A stretch of 27,006 nucleotides of DNA from a virus. The translations under genes were made by a program, and so were the position numbers. The DNA lies in IMG/VR virus record IMGVR_UViG_3300007516_000116, positions 1 through 27,006 of that record; one strand, written 5' to 3'. Every line of letters begins with the position of its first letter. The first letter of the stretch is position 1. A model generated the notes under the pieces. It saw only the letters and a program-made list of their open reading frames with translations. It made no database searches and was not told the DNA's origin. Positions 5,234 through 23,442 of the stretch are shown here, in pieces.

Positions 5234-6339
5234 TAATTATCTACCTCGGGTTTTGGCTTTGTAAAAACCTGGCTAAGTGGCTGGCGTTCTGGTACAACAA
5301 TAGCATTGCCATCGGCATCGCGTAGTGTAGTCTGATTCGCATTATTGATAAACGAACCAGCATTGTATGTAACAGTGTTCCATGACTTGTTTGTATTATC
5401 AACAACCGCGCGCCACAGCGATCCACGATACACAAATAGCCGCTCGGGCGTAAAATCGGCCCTAATGAATAGTTCGCCTTGGATAGGACTTGACGGAAAT
5501 GACAACCCGCTTGCTACTCCAGTTGTATCACCTTCACTAGCGGCCATCTCTGCTGTTCTGACTTCTATCGAACTACTACCTGAGCCATCAAACCCGTGTA
5601 TCACCGGCGTATTAGTTATATCATTGATTGTTGTGTTGTTGTAGCCAGGAGAAGGCACGGTAATAGCAGCTGATTCCAAAATAGTATTTGAAATCTGTAT
5701 TTCTTTCTGATAGGTGCTTAGTGCGTTCTTCAGACTATCCTCGTCATCTGGATCACCCAATATGCCGCGATACTCTTGAGCATCATTCATCGGAGAACAC
5801 TTGATGCGCCAAAGGTGCGGTAGCCAAGTTGGACCATACCCTTCTGCTGACCGTGAAGCATCATTTACAACATAAAATTTGTTTATACTTTTTGCAGTAG
5901 CATCCAACAGTAAGTCGTCGTTCAAGTGGGGCAATTCAATTACATCGCCGGACATCAACCGCCTACCCATGCGTTCCACCATTTCGTTCATGTGAAAAGT
6001 TAAAAACATTGTGTCGGCGTTAAGAAATAATCCAAACTGGCTTAAATCAAAATCAGCGTCGCTGATATTGTAAGTGCCAATCAGTTCGTAAATTGTCGTA
6101 TCATACACACGATCTCTATTCTCAAGGAATAGCACATCCTGAATGTCAAGCTCAGTGATCTCAGCTTTGATTTTTAAATCGGGCTTGGTTGGATCACTAC
6201 CGTCCTCAATAGCAGCAGGTCCAAGATATTTGTGGATCAGAACACCGGTCCCGCCCATATTTACGGCCTCCCGTATGAGCCGATCCTGAAAATGGTAATC
6301 ATTTGTCTTTCCGTTTTTCCATAATGTTATTCGTGACAC
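5233..6339 (-). CDS. 14: Neck protein, T4 gp14-like
   Basis: Residues 68-140 ([17 protein letters not shown], then [20 protein letters not shown] and [10 protein letters not shown]) are the conserved core I associate with gp14 of T4-like phages. In T4, gp14 with gp13 forms the neck ring that closes the filled head and accepts the tail. The start is a GTG at 6339, supported by AAGGA 8 nt upstream. At 368 aa it exceeds T4 gp14 (about 256 aa); residues 281-312 ([13 protein letters not shown]...RGSLWRAV) look like the P-x-x-G...W module repeated in gp18. The first 13 nt overlap the end of the GIY-YIG gene, so expression should depend on the promoter in front of that gene. Confidence 0.85.
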
Positions 6340-6890
6340 AATATTTGTCCTTCTATTATTGCATGAATTAACAAGTTAGATTTTCGTCGAGCCCAATCGG
6401 CTGTAGCAGCCTCACTAAGTTTTTTGCGTGTTTCATTAGTAACTGGAGGTTTATTCTTTCCAGAGTTACTCATCTTCAACTTCGTTGCTGCTGACATGTT
6501 CTGTTGTGCAATGCACATCTTTTGACGAGTCTCCTCAGACATGTTTTTGGCAGCAATGCTCATCTTCTGTCGAGCCTCAATGGAATGCACATAACCAGCT
6601 GACCCATCGCCGCCATCGGTCCTATTTCTTAATATCCCTGTCCCTAAGTCTTTCCTACCATACCAACGAATCATCCGCCGTTCAATTGCCAGCGCACCAA
6701 TATCAGACAAATGTGTCTCTAGAAATACAATTCGGGAGTTGTCTTTTGGAGTCTGCACACCCGTGTAACCTATACGATGATTGTTATATGCTCGGTATCC
6801 TTTGCCCTTACCAATGTAATATGGCGTTTTGTCAAGGCGCAAATAGGCATAAACATAGTAAATCAACGGGTCTGGAATATTGTTTGGCAT
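6327..6890 (-). CDS. Free-standing GIY-YIG homing endonuclease with NUMOD3 repeats (copy 1)
   Basis: The 187-aa protein carries a GIY-YIG catalytic domain: YYVYAYLRL (the GIY strand), [16 protein letters not shown] (YIG strand and catalytic Arg), [16 protein letters not shown] with the metal-binding Glu, and ILRNRTDGG with the conserved Asn. It is followed by four or five NUMOD3-type DNA-binding repeats ([20 protein letters not shown] and similar). Such Seg-like enzymes in T4 spread by cutting a related phage genome lacking them. No intron or intein surrounds it. The gene heads the minus-strand operon and overlaps the gp14 start by 13 nt. It is clearly paralogous to the enzyme at 8974-9663. 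No Shine-Dalgarno is seen; the ATG is 6 nt after a late-type promoter. Confidence 0.9.
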
Positions 6891-6916: not shown

Positions 6917-6945
6917 TTGACTGGGTGTTCAATATCCGTTATAAT
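6917..6945 (+). promoter_or_regulatory. Sigma70-type promoter for the 399-aa gene
   Basis: TTGACT (6917-6922), a 17-nt spacer and a perfect TATAAT (6940-6945). The start site would be near 6952, leaving a ~25-nt leader with GGAG before the ATG at 6977. It is divergent from the late-type promoter of the minus operon. Confidence 0.85.
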
Positions 6946-6976: not shown

Positions 6977-8176
6977 ATGGCCACAGCCAAAACGAAAGCA
7001 GCGCCAAAACCCGCTAAAGTAACGAAGAAGCAGGTTGCAGTGCATCGGGCCAAAGTGTCTCGTGATAACAGCCCAAATTGGACCGGCGCCGAATATTGGA
7101 CCGGTGAACAGTTTACGAAACAATTCCATGTTACTATGGAACATTACCGCTTTGAGTCAAGCATTAAAGCAATGCGCCCAAACATCCTCGAATGGATGGA
7201 ATTGCATAAGTTTGTTAAGGACGACATTGTTGCATTCCGTAAACTCAAAGACACTCGCCTATCCTCAACGATGTGCTCAATTGCAGCATGTTTGCTACGT
7301 GGTATGCCGCTTGTTCACGAAGGCTTCAACGCAGGCAAAGACACATCAAATTGGCTCCGTGCAGAGGTAATTCTTGCTCTTGCAGCCGGAGCAAATGATA
7401 CAGACGACGAAGTAAGTGATGTTCCTGTAATTGCAAAAACAACAATCCAAGATCGACTTGCTGACAAGTTTAGTGAAGCAATGGGCGAAATTGAAGGCGG
7501 CATTGACACTTACTTTACAGAAGGCAAAGCGTTCTCTGCATTTAAGTTACTGTCGGGACAAAATATTGCAGTTCAATTTGCCACAAAGATTCCCAACCTA
7601 ATTCAACCACGCATTAACGAGCTAACCGAATTGCTCGTGGGCAAAGATAGCCAACTAATGGAAGCATACAGTCATCTTTCCAAGAAAGAAGTGAAAGATG
7701 CAATCAAGTTTTATGAGAACATCATAAACGACGCAATGGTTTATAAAACAAGCAAAATTGCCACTCGTGCTAAGCCGGTGCGTAAGGCAGTGCCACCCGA
7801 AAAACAAGTGCGTGGTCTAAAGTTTCTCAAAGAGTTTGCAGCACTAGGCCTTAAAAGTATCGCACCAACTGATATTTTGGGTGTAAGCGAACTTTGGGTG
7901 TTCAACACAAAAACCCGCAAAATTGGACGATTCACAGTACCAATGCATGGCGACATGGCAATCGGAACACTTGGAGTCAAAGGCAGTGCAATAGTCGGCT
8001 ACGACGAACTGAAAAGCACTTGCAAAACGCTCCGCAAGCCAGATGTACAGCTGAAAGAGTTCAAGGCATGCGGGAAGCCACAGCTTCGTAAGTTTATGGA
8101 CACTATCAAAAGCGTTGAGACCAAGCTTAAAGGCCGTATTTCACCAGAAACCATACTGCTCCGTGCCATCAAGTAG
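6977..8176 (+). CDS. Unknown protein, 399 aa, from a host-type promoter
   Basis: ATG 6977 follows GGAG by about 7 nt. The first ~25 residues are Lys/Ala-rich (MATAKTKAAPKPAKVTKKQ), typical of a flexible basic tail that could touch nucleic acid. The middle is helical, and the last ~100 residues contain ELWVFNTKTRKIGRF, GVKGSAIVGYDE and TCKTLRKPDVQLKEF. I have seen this C-terminal pattern in uncharacterised proteins of marine T4-like phages, but know no function. No transmembrane or signal segment is present. The near-consensus sigma70 promoter suggests early expression even though it sits among late genes. Read-through into gp13 would meet the hairpin at 8187-8217. Confidence 0.8.
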   Translation: MATAKTKAAPKPAKVTKKQVAVHRAKVSRDNSPNWTGAEYWTGEQFTKQFHVTMEHYRFESSIKAMRPNILEWMELHKFVKDDIVAFRKLKDTRLSSTMCSIAACLLRGMPLVHEGFNAGKDTSNWLRAEVILALAAGANDTDDEVSDVPVIAKTTIQDRLADKFSEAMGEIEGGIDTYFTEGKAFSAFKLLSGQNIAVQFATKIPNLIQPRINELTELLVGKDSQLMEAYSHLSKKEVKDAIKFYENIINDAMVYKTSKIATRAKPVRKAVPPEKQVRGLKFLKEFAALGLKSIAPTDILGVSELWVFNTKTRKIGRFTVPMHGDMAIGTLGVKGSAIVGYDELKSTCKTLRKPDVQLKEFKACGKPQLRKFMDTIKSVETKLKGRISPETILLRAIK

Positions 8177-8186
8177 CAATAGCATC

Positions 8187-8217
8187 GTGTCTCCTATAAA
8201 TACAATATAGGAGACAC
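8187..8217 (+). promoter_or_regulatory. RBS-sequestering hairpin with embedded late promoter before gene 13
   Basis: A perfect 12-bp stem, GTGTCTCCTATA (8187-8198) and TATAGGAGACAC (8206-8217), has a 7-nt loop. The 3' arm holds AGGAG (8209-8213), the ribosome site for ATG 8222. The T4 late consensus TATAAATA lies at 8195-8202 across the 5' arm and loop. Transcripts starting there would begin near 8208-8209 and lack the 5' arm, leaving the ribosome site free; read-through RNA would hide it. No T-run follows, so it is not a standard terminator. Confidence 0.8.
8195..8202 (+). promoter_or_regulatory. T4-type late promoter TATAAATA for gene 13
   Basis: An exact match to the T4 late -10 octamer, 19 nt before the gp13 ATG, inside the hairpin described at 8187-8217. 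Confidence 0.75.
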
Positions 8218-8221
8218 ATTC

Positions 8222-8977
8222 ATGACCAGCACTGACAAAACACATTACCGCGCTAAAGTAGCAAAATATATTGAGCTAAATTTGGGTGCTGGCCTCGTGG
8301 ATGTTGAGTTTGATGCCGAGCATTTAGACATGTCGCTAGATCGTGCTCTTGCTAAATATCGCCAGCGTTCTTCCAGAGCAGTAGAAGAAAGTTACATGGT
8401 ACTCAACCTAACAAAAGGTGAGTCAAATTACTATCTTCCAGAAGAAGTAATTAATGTACGCACAATTTACCGTCGAGGCATTGGAACATCAGGTGGTACT
8501 GGAACAAGCTTTGATCCATTTGCTGCGGCATTCGCAAACATGTATATGCTTAACGCGTCGGGCAGTCAAGGGCTAGCTACATTTGAACTATACATGGGCA
8601 AACTTGAATTGTTGGGCCGCATGTTTGGGGCACACCTTACTTTCGTATATAATCCAGTTAGCCATATGCTAAGTATTACCCGCAATATCAAGGCAGACGA
8701 ACCAGTTGTCCTGCAAACATACAACTACAAGCCCGACGAAATGATTATTGCTGATCCAAGCTCGGGTCCGTGGATTAAAGATTACGCCCTTGCTGTGGCA
8801 AAGATGTTACTTGGACAAGCCCGTAGTAAGTTCACTACATTAGCCGGTCCACAAGGCGGAGTTACCTTAAATGGTGCAGAATTGCTTGCACAAGGGCAGG
8901 CTGAGATTGTACAACTTGAAGAAGATATTCGCAACTTCTGCGATGGCGGCACGCCTCCAAGTTTTTTGTTTGGTTAG
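8222..8977 (+). CDS. 13: Neck protein, T4 gp13-like
   Basis: The 251-aa protein carries the gp13 pattern of T4-like phages: [20 protein letters not shown] (residues 37-56), [45 protein letters not shown], and [20 protein letters not shown] near the end. In T4, gp13 and gp14 together complete the head and form the site for tail joining. AGGAG 8 nt before the ATG is hidden in a hairpin that a late transcript would lack. The gene is on the plus strand while its partner gp14 is on the minus strand 2 kb upstream. The TAG stop overlaps the stop of the minus-strand GIY-YIG gene by 3 bases (8974-8977 region). Confidence 0.87.
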
Positions 8978-9663
8978 AGACTCCTTTTATTAAGATGCCG
9001 TTTCTTTGCAGCGGCACTCATCTTCTGTTTAGCTTCTTCAGTATGAGGAAGGCGGGGCCTTGCTAAATCTCTAATCTTCTGTTTAGCTTCTTCAGTATGA
9101 GGAATCCGTAATTTTTGTTTAAATTCTTCTGAACGAATTATACCTATTAGCCTTCCTTTGTTTGCAGAACCTATTTTCTGTTTAGTTTCTTCAGACCGAG
9201 GGCCTCTTATCTTACCCCTTTGCGCGTCACTTATCTTCTGCTTGGTTGCGTCGGTCATTTGTTGTTTAGCAACACTCATCTTCTGTTTAGTTTCTTCTGA
9301 ATGAGGAGTCCGTACTCGACTCTTATGAAATTCGCTTGCCTGCTGACGAGATTCAATTGAACGAATTGACCCTCCCCCACCTTCGCCGCCATCTGTACGA
9401 TTATTAAGGATTCCATTGCCACTATCTTTTCTTCCATACCACCTTATTAAGCGGCGTTCGATTGCCAACGCACCAACTTCAGTTAAATTCGTTTCAAGTA
9501 ATACGATGCAGGATTTTTCTTTTGGACTTCCCTTACGATAAGCTCGGTAAGCCTGCCCCTTACCGATATAGTACGGAGTTCCTGCTTTTGCGGTAATCGA
9601 ATCATGTTTTCTAATCCATGCATACACATAGAAAATTGTTTTATAAATAGCTTTGTTGGTCAT
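8974..9663 (-). CDS. Free-standing GIY-YIG homing endonuclease with NUMOD3 repeats (copy 2)
   Basis: The 229-aa protein has [41 protein letters not shown] with catalytic Glu, and [12 protein letters not shown], nearly the same core as the copy at 6327-6890. It has an insertion after the first strand ([10 protein letters not shown]). Six or more NUMOD3-type repeats follow ([32 protein letters not shown] and others), making its DNA-binding tail longer than copy 1. It ends tail to tail with gp13. Its upstream region (late-type motif, hairpin, AAGG site, MTNK codons) is almost the same as that of the third endonuclease at 20445. A free-standing homing role, targeting sites near gp13 in related phages, is the natural inference. 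Confidence 0.9.
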
Positions 9664-15647: not shown

Positions 15648-15655
15648 CATAAATA
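15648..15655 (+). promoter_or_regulatory. T4-like late promoter motif CATAAATA abutting the gp16 ATG
   Basis: CATAAATA is followed by only AAGT before ATG 15660 and there is no Shine-Dalgarno, so a transcript from here would begin at or inside the start codon. Confidence 0.5.
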
Positions 15656-18800: not shown

Positions 18801-20381
18801 ATGGCTTTAGTAAACACATTCATTAAGCCGCCATTTCAGATTGAAAAGTTCAGCGATGTTCAAATCGCTGAACTTTCAAAATGCGCTTTAGATCCAGTTT
18901 ATTTTATCGACACCTACTGTTGGGTACAGCATGCCACATTAGGTAAAGTAAAATTTAAACTTTACGATTATCAACGCGAACTCATTGAGTGCTACCACAA
19001 TAATCGCTATTCTGTAAATCTACTTGGAAGGCAGATGGGTAAAACGGCCTGCGCCGCTGCATATCTTGTATGGTATGCAATGTTCATCGCTGACAGTACT
19101 ATTCTAATCGCAGCCCACAAGTACACCGGCGCTCAAGAAATTATGCAAAGGGTACGTTACACATATGAAACATTACCATCCTGGCTGAAATCAGGCGCTA
19201 CAAGTTATAACAAGGGCAGTATCGACTTTGACAACGGCTCTCGTATCTTGTCAGCAACCACAACCGAAACAACAGCGCGGGGCATGTCACTTTCGCTAAT
19301 CTACTTAGATGAGTTTGCATTCGTCAAGCCGCGTATAGCAACAGAATTTTGGACATCAATCTCCCCTACATTGTCAACTGGCGGTAAGTGTATTATTACC
19401 AGTACGCCAAATCAAGATGACGATCAATTTGCCCGCATTTGGAAAGATGCAATACGCAAGGAAGACGAGTTTGGCAATCAAACCCGCACCGTTGGTCGCA
19501 ATGGGTTTGCTTCTATTAAATTTATTTGGAGCCACCATCCAGATCGTGACGAAGAGTGGGCAAATACCGAGCGGATCAAAATCGGCGCAGAACGATTTCT
19601 GCGGGAACACGAAGGCGAATTCATCATTGCAGATGAGACACTTGTTTCCCCAATGAAGTTAGTAACAATGGAAGGCTCCGAACCCACAAATAAAATGGGG
19701 CAGGTACGTGTGTATTCGTACCCACAACCCGGCGAAACATTTGTATTAGGATGGGATCCAAGCCTTGGCACAGGCGGCGATCCTTCAGCTATTCAAGTAT
19801 TTAGATTACCCGATCTAGTACAGGTTGCAGAGTGGCAACATAATAAAACCGACATGACGGGGCAGTTGCGCACCCTAGTTGCTATCCTAAAATGGATACA
19901 AACTGAATCAAAGAATAACAGCGAGATATATTGGTCCGTGGAAAACAATACCATCGGTGAAGCAGCATTGATGGCAATTCGTGAATTTGGCGAACAAAAT
20001 ATACCAGGGACCTTTGTACAGGAAGTACGAAGACCTGGGCAGAACAGAGGACGTCGTGGCTTTAACACTTCACACAAAACGAAACTAACGGGTTGCATGA
20101 GATTAAAGAGCTATGTCGAAGGCGACAAGATGACTATTAAGAGTCACAACCTATTACGCGAACTGAAAAACTTCATTGCCCGCGGCCCAAGTTTTGCCGC
20201 CAAAGATGGTGAAACGGATGATTTAGTTATGGCAACAATATTAGTACTACGCATGGTGGAAGTTATAATGTCATGGGACAAGGTTGTTTACGACAGGCTT
20301 ATAAATTCCGGTGCAGATCTGATTTTAAAACCAATGCCAATTGGCTGGTCGGCTGGTTATAGTGGTACTTTGACTAAATAG
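18801..20381 (+). CDS. 17: Terminase large subunit (packaging ATPase/nuclease), T4 gp17-like
   Basis: All main motor parts are present in the 526 aa. The ATPase half has Walker A GRQMGKT (76-82), Walker B LIYLDE (166-171) and the coupling motif TSTPN (200-204). The nuclease half has WDPSLGTGGDPSA (Asp319), SVENNTIGEA (Glu381) and ETDDLVMA (Asp473/474), the RNase H-like acidic triad that cuts concatemeric DNA. T4 gp17 is 610 aa; the difference lies mainly in the termini. It acts at the portal of the prohead. AGAGGG lies 6-7 nt before ATG 18801. The stop (ACT AAA TAG) forms part of a late-type motif and of the cassette shared with the GIY-YIG gene copy 2. Confidence 0.95.
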   Translation: MALVNTFIKPPFQIEKFSDVQIAELSKCALDPVYFIDTYCWVQHATLGKVKFKLYDYQRELIECYHNNRYSVNLLGRQMGKTACAAAYLVWYAMFIADSTILIAAHKYTGAQEIMQRVRYTYETLPSWLKSGATSYNKGSIDFDNGSRILSATTTETTARGMSLSLIYLDEFAFVKPRIATEFWTSISPTLSTGGKCIITSTPNQDDDQFARIWKDAIRKEDEFGNQTRTVGRNGFASIKFIWSHHPDRDEEWANTERIKIGAERFLREHEGEFIIADETLVSPMKLVTMEGSEPTNKMGQVRVYSYPQPGETFVLGWDPSLGTGGDPSAIQVFRLPDLVQVAEWQHNKTDMTGQLRTLVAILKWIQTESKNNSEIYWSVENNTIGEAALMAIREFGEQNIPGTFVQEVRRPGQNRGRRGFNTSHKTKLTGCMRLKSYVEGDKMTIKSHNLLRELKNFIARGPSFAAKDGETDDLVMATILVLRMVEVIMSWDKVVYDRLINSGADLILKPMPIGWSAGYSGTLTK

Positions 20382-20456
20382 AATAGGTGACAGCCACGGT
20401 ATGCAACTACCCGCTGTCATTAGTCAACCCACTCTAAGGATTATATGACCAACAAA
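20371..20456 (+). repeat. Shared endonuclease 5' cassette, copy B (late-type motif, hairpin, RBS, MTNK)
   Basis: An 86-nt segment matches the minus-strand region 9652-9735. It can fold with TTGACTAA (20370-20377) against TTAGTCAA (20420-20427) and TGACAGC (20388-20394) against GCTGTCA (20413-20419), leaving a 10-nt bulge. AAGGA (20436-20440) and ATGACCAACAAA follow. Copy B starts inside the last codons of gp17. Confidence 0.88.
20374..20380 (+). promoter_or_regulatory. T4-like late promoter motif CTAAATA overlapping the gp17 stop
   Basis: CTAAATA lies in ACT AAA TAG at the end of gp17 and in the 5' arm of the cassette hairpin, 64 nt before the GIY-YIG start. RNA starting near 20387 would keep only the inner stem of the hairpin. 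Confidence 0.5.
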
Positions 20457-21299
20457 ACTACTTATCTAGCACCGCCATACGTTTACCGAATTGATCATCC
20501 AATATCCGGCGAATTCTACGTTGGTTACCGAAAAGCCAACAAATTGCCAGCAATAGAAGATTTTGGCCACGTTTACAAAACTAGCAGCAAACTGCTAACG
20601 CATCCTTTTGACGAATATACACACATGTTATTAGCTGAATTTTTCACCGAAACAGCAAGCGAAGACGCATATGACTTTGAACAGCTAACTATTTTTGAAA
20701 ACTGGAACAATCCATCACTTGCTAATAAATCATGTTTTCATGGAAAAGGACGATTTAGGAATAACGGTCATTCACAAGAAACTCGTCAAAAGATAAAGGA
20801 AGCTAGAAAGAATCAATCGCCCTTCACCGACGCAACCCGTCAAAAGATAAAGGAAGCTAGAAAGAATCAATCGCCCTTCACCGACGCAACCCGCCAAAAG
20901 ATGAGTGATGCTAACAAGAGGCGGCCACCTATAACTGAAGAAACAAGGCAGAAGTTAAGAGACGGCCATAAGAATATGTCTGCGGAAATTAAGCAGAAGT
21001 TGAAACTTAAACAAGCCAATCGCCCACCTATAACTGAAGAAACAAGGAAAAAGTTAAGTGATTCTGCCATTGGTAGAGTTAGGTCAGCAGAATCTATACG
21101 GAAGACTACTGAAGCAAATACAGGGCGAAAAGATTCGCCAGAAACGTGCCTGGCTAAAAGTATTGCTGGCAAAAACCGATTTAAAAACAGTGGAGGCCAC
21201 TCTGAAGAAACCATACAAAAGATGTGTAAATCACAATCAAATCGTTCAGAGGTAACCCTGGCTAGAATGAGAGCCGCGCAAAAAATCGACCACCTATAA
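20445..21299 (+). CDS. GIY-YIG-like homing endonuclease with NUMOD3 repeats (copy 3), apparent C-terminal frameshift
   Basis: AAGGA precedes ATG 20445. The 284-aa product has a variant GIY-YIG domain: PYVYRIDHPISGEFYVGYRK (residues 9-28), a later FEQLTIFENW with a possible catalytic Glu, and NKSCFHGKG. It differs strongly from copies 1 and 2 beyond the first four residues (MTNK). At least seven NUMOD3-type repeats follow (RQKIKEARKNQSPFTDAT twice, RQKMSDANKRRPPITEET and others). The frame stops at 21299, but just before it, at an A6 run (21280-21285), the -1 frame continues the repeat pattern (NRPPITEETRLKMRNAQLNR) to a stop at 21370. The gene is directly after gp17, a typical free-standing homing site. 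Confidence 0.82.
   Translation: MTNKTTYLAPPYVYRIDHPISGEFYVGYRKANKLPAIEDFGHVYKTSSKLLTHPFDEYTHMLLAEFFTETASEDAYDFEQLTIFENWNNPSLANKSCFHGKGRFRNNGHSQETRQKIKEARKNQSPFTDATRQKIKEARKNQSPFTDATRQKMSDANKRRPPITEETRQKLRDGHKNMSAEIKQKLKLKQANRPPITEETRKKLSDSAIGRVRSAESIRKTTEANTGRKDSPETCLAKSIAGKNRFKNSGGHSEETIQKMCKSQSNRSEVTLARMRAAQKIDHL
20784..20891 (+). repeat. Exact 54-bp tandem duplication in the NUMOD3 region
   Basis: Two identical 54-bp units (20784-20837 and 20838-20891) encode RQKIKEARKNQSPFTDAT twice. Being identical, the duplication must be recent compared with the other, diverged NUMOD3 repeats in the gene. Confidence 0.95.
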
Positions 21300-22369: not shown

Positions 22370-23362
22370 ATGGCATCATTAGCAGAAATTCGCGCTCGGT
22401 TAGCCGAGCAAGCACAAAAATCCAGCGGTACTAAATTCGCAGGTGGCGATAACGGAATCTTCGCACATTGGAATATTGCAGAAGGCACTTCAGCAACTAT
22501 TCGATTCCTCCCAGACGGTGACGAGAAAAATACATTCTTTTGGCGTGAACGCCAAATGATTAAAATCCCATTCGCTGGCATTGTGGGGCAAGACGAAAAC
22601 AAGAAAGTAACTGTACAAGTACCTTGTACCGAAATGTGGGACGAAACATGCCCAATTCACGCAACAATCCGTCCGTGGTTCAAAGATCCTAATATGGAAA
22701 AACTTGGACGCACTTATTGGAAAAAGCGTTCTTACGTGTTCCAAGGCTTTGTTGTAAACAGCCCAATGGAAGAAGAAAGCATACCGGAAAATCCAATCCG
22801 TCGCTTCATCATCGGCCCACAGATCTTCACTTTGATCAAGCAAGCTTTGATGGATCCGGACATGGAAGATTTGCCAACAGAATACGTTGGTGGTACAGAC
22901 TTCCGTTTGAACAAGACGCAGAAGGGCGGCTATGCTGACTATTCAACATCTGGCTGGGCGCGAAAAGCACGTGACCTAAATGAAACCGAGTTGACTGCAA
23001 TTGCAACACACACGTTGTTTAATCTTGGCGACTTCATGCCAAAGCGTCCAAACGCCGATGAAGTTAAAGCAATCTTCGAAATGTTTGAAGCAAGCGTTGA
23101 TGGGCAATTGTATGATCCAGCCAAGTGGAGCAAGTTCTACCGTCCAAGTGGCGTGGCAATGGCCGGTGGCGGAGCAGCAGGTGACGCAGATGAGGATACA
23201 CCTGCTGCCCGTCCAGCGCCACGAACAAGTACTCCTGCGGCATCAGCAAGTGCACCAGCCGCAGCAAGTGCACCAGCCGCAGCAAGTGCACCAGCAACAG
23301 GTGCAGCAAAGCCATCCGTCGATGATATCCTAAAGATGATTCGTAACCGCTCGGCTTCGTAA
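22370..23362 (+). CDS. 32: Single-stranded DNA-binding protein, T4 gp32-like
   Basis: The 330-aa protein has the gp32 layout: a Lys/Arg-containing N-terminus (LAEIRARLAEQAQK) for cooperative binding, an OB-fold core (ATIRFLPDGD, FFWRERQMIKIPF, GRTYWKKRSYVFQGFVVN, RRFIIGPQIFTLIKQALMDP, YADYSTSGWARK), and a flexible tail ending DDILKMIRNRSAS. T4 gp32 binds zinc through His and three Cys; here only Cys86, Cys94 and His97 cluster (VPCTEMWDETCPIHA), so the zinc site may be altered or lost. The tail has an Ala/Ser/Pro repeat and is less acidic than in T4. AAGGA precedes the ATG. It protects ssDNA and organises replication and recombination with UvsX/UvsY. Confidence 0.93.
   Translation: MASLAEIRARLAEQAQKSSGTKFAGGDNGIFAHWNIAEGTSATIRFLPDGDEKNTFFWRERQMIKIPFAGIVGQDENKKVTVQVPCTEMWDETCPIHATIRPWFKDPNMEKLGRTYWKKRSYVFQGFVVNSPMEEESIPENPIRRFIIGPQIFTLIKQALMDPDMEDLPTEYVGGTDFRLNKTQKGGYADYSTSGWARKARDLNETELTAIATHTLFNLGDFMPKRPNADEVKAIFEMFEASVDGQLYDPAKWSKFYRPSGVAMAGGGAAGDADEDTPAARPAPRTSTPAASASAPAAASAPAAASAPATGAAKPSVDDILKMIRNRSAS
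23246..23295 (+). repeat. 18-bp tandem repeat in the gp32 linker
   Basis: GCAAGTGCACCAGCCGCA is present in two exact units (23246-23263, 23264-23281) plus a 14-bp third, encoding ASAPAA repeats between core and C-terminal tail. It probably sets linker length. Confidence 0.9.
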
Positions 23363-23364
23363 TA

Positions 23365-23398
23365 GATGATGGGTGTAGAATCATCTACACCCATCATC
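23365..23398 (+). other. Perfect 15-bp hairpin after gp32, no T-run
   Basis: GATGATGGGTGTAGA (23365-23379) pairs fully with 23384-23398 around ATCA, 2 nt after the gp32 stop. CCTTCAAAA follows rather than a T-run, so it is not a normal terminator. It may stabilise gp32 mRNA, be a processing site, or act as a partial terminator that lowers uvsX relative to gp32. Confidence 0.85.
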
Positions 23399-23442
23399 CC
23401 TTCAAAAGCAAGCCCTGGTCAGCAGCAAGAAGAGCAGCACAA

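Follow-up and report, generated by a model that had tools for sequence, protein, structure and literature searches.

The gp13-like neck gene of the window (the whole stretch of 27,006 nucleotides that was analysed, a 27-kb virus fragment) is preceded by a hairpin which, with a probability of about 85% by our estimate, works as a combined late promoter and translation lock like that of T4 gene e. In T4 gene e the late promoter lies in the 5' arm of a hairpin in which the ribosome binding site is buried; the early read-through RNA is silent and the late RNA is translated (PMC3014915). For the window the corresponding scheme would be as follows. RNA started upstream, for example at the sigma70-type promoter at 6917, would cross the upstream gene into gp13 and carry both arms of the hairpin. 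This read-through RNA would fold the 12-bp stem and hide the AGGAG, so that gp13 would not be made early. Late RNA polymerase with a phage gp55-type sigma factor would start inside the hairpin, at approximately 8208, and the resulting RNA, lacking the 5' arm, would have its Shine-Dalgarno sequence free at the very 5' end and be translated. The evidence that can be read directly from the sequences comprises the hairpin, its compensatory conservation, the motif at its apex, the upstream sigma70 promoter, the late sigma factor in relatives and the recurrence at other late genes. From these we infer where and when late transcription starts, that early RNA reads through, and how translation is affected; keeping the neck protein off early RNA would be the selective reason. 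The features concerned are listed in Table 1.

Table 1. Features of the gp13 leader and of other parts of the window.
Feature	Position	Strand	Basis
Homing-endonuclease-like gene (phrog_314/15526)	6327-6890	-	Profile match
Sigma70-type promoter TTGACT-17-TATAAT, presumed origin of early read-through RNA	6917-6945	+	11/12 match
Upstream gene, 399 aa, phrog_11903, unknown function	6977-8176	+	Co-directional with gp13
5' arm of the putative sequestering stem, GTGTCTCCTATA	8187-8198	+	Fold, inverted repeat, compensatory changes in relatives
Putative T4-type late promoter TATAAATA	8195-8202 (core TAAATA 8197-8202)	+	Motif match, apex position, gp55-type sigma in relatives
Hairpin loop AATACAA, 7 nt	8199-8205	+	RNA fold
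3' arm of the stem, TATAGGAGACAC, holding the ribosome binding site	8206-8217	+	Fold, inverted repeat
Predicted late transcription start	8208-8209	+	T4 spacing rule and TAA(A/G)TA-N5-ATG spike in the clade
Shine-Dalgarno sequence AGGAG	8209-8213	+	Buried in the 3' arm
gp13-like neck / head-tail adaptor Ad2 gene, 251 aa	8222-8977	+	phrog_211, E = 9e-34; relatives annotated neck protein or Ad2
Homing-endonuclease-like gene (phrog_314/15526)	8974-9663	-	Profile match
Homing-endonuclease-like gene (phrog_314/15526)	20445-21299	+	Profile match

From 5' to 3' the leader consists of GTGTCTCCTATA, AATACAA, TATAGGAGACAC, ATTC and the ATG at 8222. The arms pair at 12/12 positions with the AGGAG inside, and TATAAATA straddles the 5' arm and the loop. 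The original prediction had described exactly this, a perfect stem burying AGGAG at 8187-8222 with the octamer across 5' arm and loop; its coordinates were correct to the base, and the octamer was seen at 8195-8202. The RNA fold of 8150-8260 has an energy of -24.6 kcal/mol (z = -3.8), and none of 200 shuffled sequences was equally stable. Inverted repeats that pair perfectly over 12 bp or more, with a loop of 3-12 nt, occur three times in the window, against 0.017 expected under a first-order Markov model. Comparison of the hairpin region with Rfam gave only sub-threshold chance matches to a microRNA model. TATAAATA is not rare by itself, with 2 copies found in the window and 1.5 expected. Because it occurs at the chance rate, the motif count was not taken as evidence, and placement, covariation and a swapped-flank control were used instead; the significance of TATAAATA appears to lie in its placement and in its conservation in relatives.

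The position of the late start was predicted with the T4 spacing rule. The T4 TATAAATA box is located at -13 to -6 (PMC2988020), which for the octamer of the window gives a +1 at 8208; an RNA starting there would omit the 5' arm. The predicted +1 is the first G of GGAG in most relatives; at almost every hairpin locus it falls either on GGAG or within a few bases 5' of it, and at one locus (L001) it lies one base inside. Across the clade the Shine-Dalgarno sequence was predicted to be unpaired at ~0.00 in the read-through RNA versus 0.43-0.97 in the late RNA, and for the AGGAG of the window the values were 0.00 and 0.38-0.96, depending on the 3' length folded. The start region of gp13 (8222-8233, CATGACCAGCAC) is strongly predicted to pair with coding sequence at about 8288-8302 (GTGCTGGCC...) in both RNAs. 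In the late RNA of the window this pairing is predicted to involve the AUG once more than ~80 nt have been made; it is unexplained by the lock model and may not matter co-transcriptionally.

Promoters resembling TATAAATA are present before late genes of the clade, as in T4-type late transcription, and TAAATA is enriched in the noncoding DNA preceding genes; in a 285-kb relative (G004), 63 of the 134 sites fall within the 10% of the genome that is noncoding. A gene for a gp55-type late sigma factor was found in six of the seven relatives searched (G004, G005, G001, G002, Atu_ph07 and PA5oct), by matches to phrog_12791 (E about 1e-83 to 1e-118) and phrog_234; the seventh, without a match, is a 68-kb fragment.

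The sigma70 promoter that had been proposed at 6917 was confirmed at 6917-6945, and the 399-aa gene behind it ends ~46 bp 5' of the gp13 ATG. Most relatives have the same gene order with a spacing of 44-49 nt. A scan of 1.7 kb covered those hairpin-bearing relatives (gp13 identity 54% or more) whose upstream sequence was long enough. It showed in each a sigma70 promoter about 1308-1366 nt 5' of gp13, of the form TTGACA-17-TATAAT (12/12), preceding a co-directional gene as in the window; the match to the consensus is 11/12 in the window itself and 10/12 in L002/L003. A terminator scan of the + strand of the window listed no terminator-like site between the upstream gene and gp13. Given a consensus sigma70 promoter, a co-directional gene and no terminator-like site on the + strand, it is plausible that early RNA reads into gp13.

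Relatives were collected by a sheath-protein scan of viral contigs, which yielded ~80 loci; these are partly redundant contig fragments with many close relatives among them, and the counts therefore overstate independent events. By gp13, the closest deposited phages (Atu_ph07, PA5oct, Munch and others, all of them jumbo phages) share at most 45% identity, and megablast of the region against deposited phages gave no DNA-level match. In nearly all relatives with a 54-97% identical gp13, the leader contains a strong stem that carries TAAATA at its apex and GGAG within the 3' arm, and at ~43% identity most relatives keep such a hairpin too (L059, L061-L064). The letters of the stem differ between relatives while TAAATA and GGAG stay in place; in L001, with 97% gp13 identity, the leader stem reads GTGTGTCTCTGC-TAAATACT-GCGGAGACACAC. 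TAAATA is invariant at the apex in 21 aligned loci.

Covariation was assessed for a 14-pair stem in 15 distinct aligned sequences, in which 88% of the cells are paired and both sides have changed at 7/14 pairs (26 cells). None of 500 shuffles reached 26 such cells, a result which is inflated by related sequences. This does not affect the slide test, in which registers slid by 1-3 columns contained 1-7 both-side-changed cells versus 26 in the true register. In addition, a sequence-anchored register scan showed 82% pairing at one offset versus 20-51% at the rest. Stem changes in relatives that break the pairing, which would have counted against the original prediction, were looked for in this way, and the stem was found to persist through compensatory changes; its structure thus appears to be kept by selection.

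Other leaders are built differently. In L002/L003 (61% identity) and L055 (50%) there is another stem, in which a CATAAATA arm pairs with the start codon region and the Shine-Dalgarno sequence is not hidden; the promoter is again placed in an arm. No such hairpin was found in the gp13 leader of Atu_ph07, where the upstream gene is divergent, in that of L004, or in those of L071-L085, a distant group for which we use the working label marine. Several of these marine relatives have TAAATA exactly 5 nt 5' of the gp13 ATG. Two of them (L073/L074) lack the hairpin despite a sigma70-like site (11/12) upstream, so the tie of the hairpin to early read-through is not absolute, although their starts look leaderless.

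The swapped-flank control was applied to genes in general: at sites with TAAATA 12-32 nt before a start, stems between promoter flank and start region with a score of at least 20 were counted, and compared with the same sites after their 5' flanks had been swapped. The numbers seen versus expected were 12 versus 1.0 in the clade (a count that includes orthologous gp13 sites), 5 versus 0.5 in G002, 3 versus 0.4 in PA5oct and 4 versus 0.8 in Atu_ph07. Further carriers are an endolysin gene (phrog_894), whose orthologues have differing stems around CATAAATA, a holin gene (phrog_3427, score 17), HNH homing endonuclease genes and a baseplate-like gene. As a positive control the same scan was run blind on the T4 genome, where the highest ranks went to e (leader AATACCTTCTA-taaatact-TAGGAGGTATT), a segB-like GIY-YIG gene, soc and I-TevII. 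That T4 uses the device for e, soc and I-TevI, as had been stated beforehand, is documented (PMC3014915, PMC2988022), and the scan recovered e and soc; I-TevI, however, was outside its top 14.

This recurrence also bears on whether the hairpin instead serves the upstream gene, as a 3'-end stabiliser, a pause or terminator or an RNase processing site, with the burial of GGAG being incidental. The hairpin starts 10 nt past the stop codon of that gene, and a stable stem there could protect a 3' end. Its position, however, follows TAAATA and GGAG across relatives, the same arrangement is found at endolysin, holin and homing endonuclease genes with differing upstream genes, and L002 and L055 use a different stem that hides the start codon rather than the Shine-Dalgarno sequence. 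We consider this explanation improbable. An intrinsic terminator in particular was rejected, as a G+C-rich stem followed by a T run is not present and the + strand scan does not list the hairpin.

A second type of start was recognised by its spacing. At 43 gene starts TAA(A/G)TA is separated from the ATG by exactly 5 nt, compared with 13 starts with a gap of 4 nt and 0-7 with most other short gaps, in counts pooled over seven partly redundant genomes (G004, G001, G002, G005, G006, G007 and the window) with gene calls made by simple ORF heuristics. Beside this spike the promoter motif has a second, broad peak at 16-28 nt before the ATG. The 5-nt peak is absent in PA5oct, Atu_ph07 and T4. One virion structural gene retains the 5-nt gap in 6/6 clade genomes, with varying N5. 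Examples in the window are located at about 21367, before a virion gene, and at 15650 with a gap of 4 nt. Under the T4 spacing rule a 5-nt gap puts +1 on the A of the AUG, which predicts leaderless late mRNAs. The spike thereby supports the +1 used for the hairpin loci and suggests a second late-only design. Distant gp13 relatives appear to use this TAA(A/G)TA-N5-ATG design in place of the hairpin. With odds that we judge to be about even, the clade achieves late-only expression by two interchangeable start designs on one promoter, a sequestering hairpin or a leaderless start, between which gp13 orthologues would switch; read-through RNA would offer the leaderless starts no Shine-Dalgarno sequence. 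Start-codon stems with a score of at least 16 were in weak excess in the 5-nt-gap class (6 seen versus 1.5 expected), and such stems were dropped as a rule for these starts.

The distribution of TAAATA was also used to weigh a lock that is opened otherwise, through a protein, a change in temperature or cleavage of the loop by RNase, with TAAATA as an AU-rich loop signal and not a promoter. The invariance of TAAATA in the loop would equally be expected of a loop-binding or cleavage signal. However, TAAATA is found at many genes without a hairpin, its spacing is promoter-like (the spike at 5 nt before the ATG and the broad peak at 16-28 nt), and gp55-type sigma genes are present, so that we give this possibility a very slim chance. 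It is scarcely credible that the inverted repeat, which does enclose the promoter motif, acts in transcription only, as a promoter structured at the DNA level (through an extruded hairpin or as an inverted-repeat operator, as in the N4 virion polymerase promoters). In the same genomes the majority of TAAATA sites preceding genes are without such a repeat, arm sequences that are free to vary if paired do not fit a protein-binding operator, and the apex TAAATA has no fixed flanking sequence.

The late-promoter/translation lock has been described on late genes and homing endonuclease genes, namely T4 soc, gene 49, I-TevI/II/III and segB and Aeh1 mobE (PMC2988022, PMC3014915). As far as can be told from sequence, the mechanism is this known T4 device; its occurrence in this phage lineage and on a neck gene is new, as is the covariation across the clade. 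The hairpin logic is the same as that of T4 gene e, whose product is lysozyme, whereas the product here is a neck protein; the phages belong to a separate jumbo lineage without a megablast-level DNA match to deposited phages, and in most relatives the late RNA is predicted to begin directly with GGAG. Many of the T4 and Aeh1 genes are accessory or mobile, whereas here the device is fixed clade-wide on a gene for a virion neck protein, and is linked with a sigma70 promoter that is conserved 1.3 kb upstream. The other carriers (endolysin, holin, homing endonuclease) are the kinds of genes that T4 guards. For CBB/GAP32-type jumbo phages an ATAAATA motif before structural genes and a gp55-like sigma factor have been described (PMC5259590); the motif, there a MEME prediction only, resembles that of the clade, which likewise has a gp55-like sigma. 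The hairpin device was not found in that paper under the terms searched, nor was it reported for jumbo phages in the open-access literature searched.

Selection would thus maintain, in a distinct lineage of jumbo phages, a device known from a handful of T4 genes, and would do so at a virion gene of an essential type in addition to lysis, decoration and homing genes. As the predicted 5' ends are base-precise, dozens of predictions, including the leaderless late mRNAs, could be tested by one 5'-end sequencing run.

Some further observations were made in the window. The homing-endonuclease-like gene at 8974-9663 sits between gp13 and a dNMP kinase gene; compared with PA5oct it is an insertion. 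In the gene at 6890, TAAATA lies 6 nt 5' of the ATG, and the start codon is covered by a short GGCATA/TATGCC stem. At 18845-18876, close to the 5' end of the ORF for the terminase large subunit, there is an inverted repeat whose arms (AAAGTTCAGCGAT/ATCGCTGAACTTT) pair perfectly over 13 bp around a 6-nt loop. Finally, a long inverted repeat with a 15-bp perfect core, possibly a terminator, follows just after the gp32-like gene at 23354-23409, with no clear T run.
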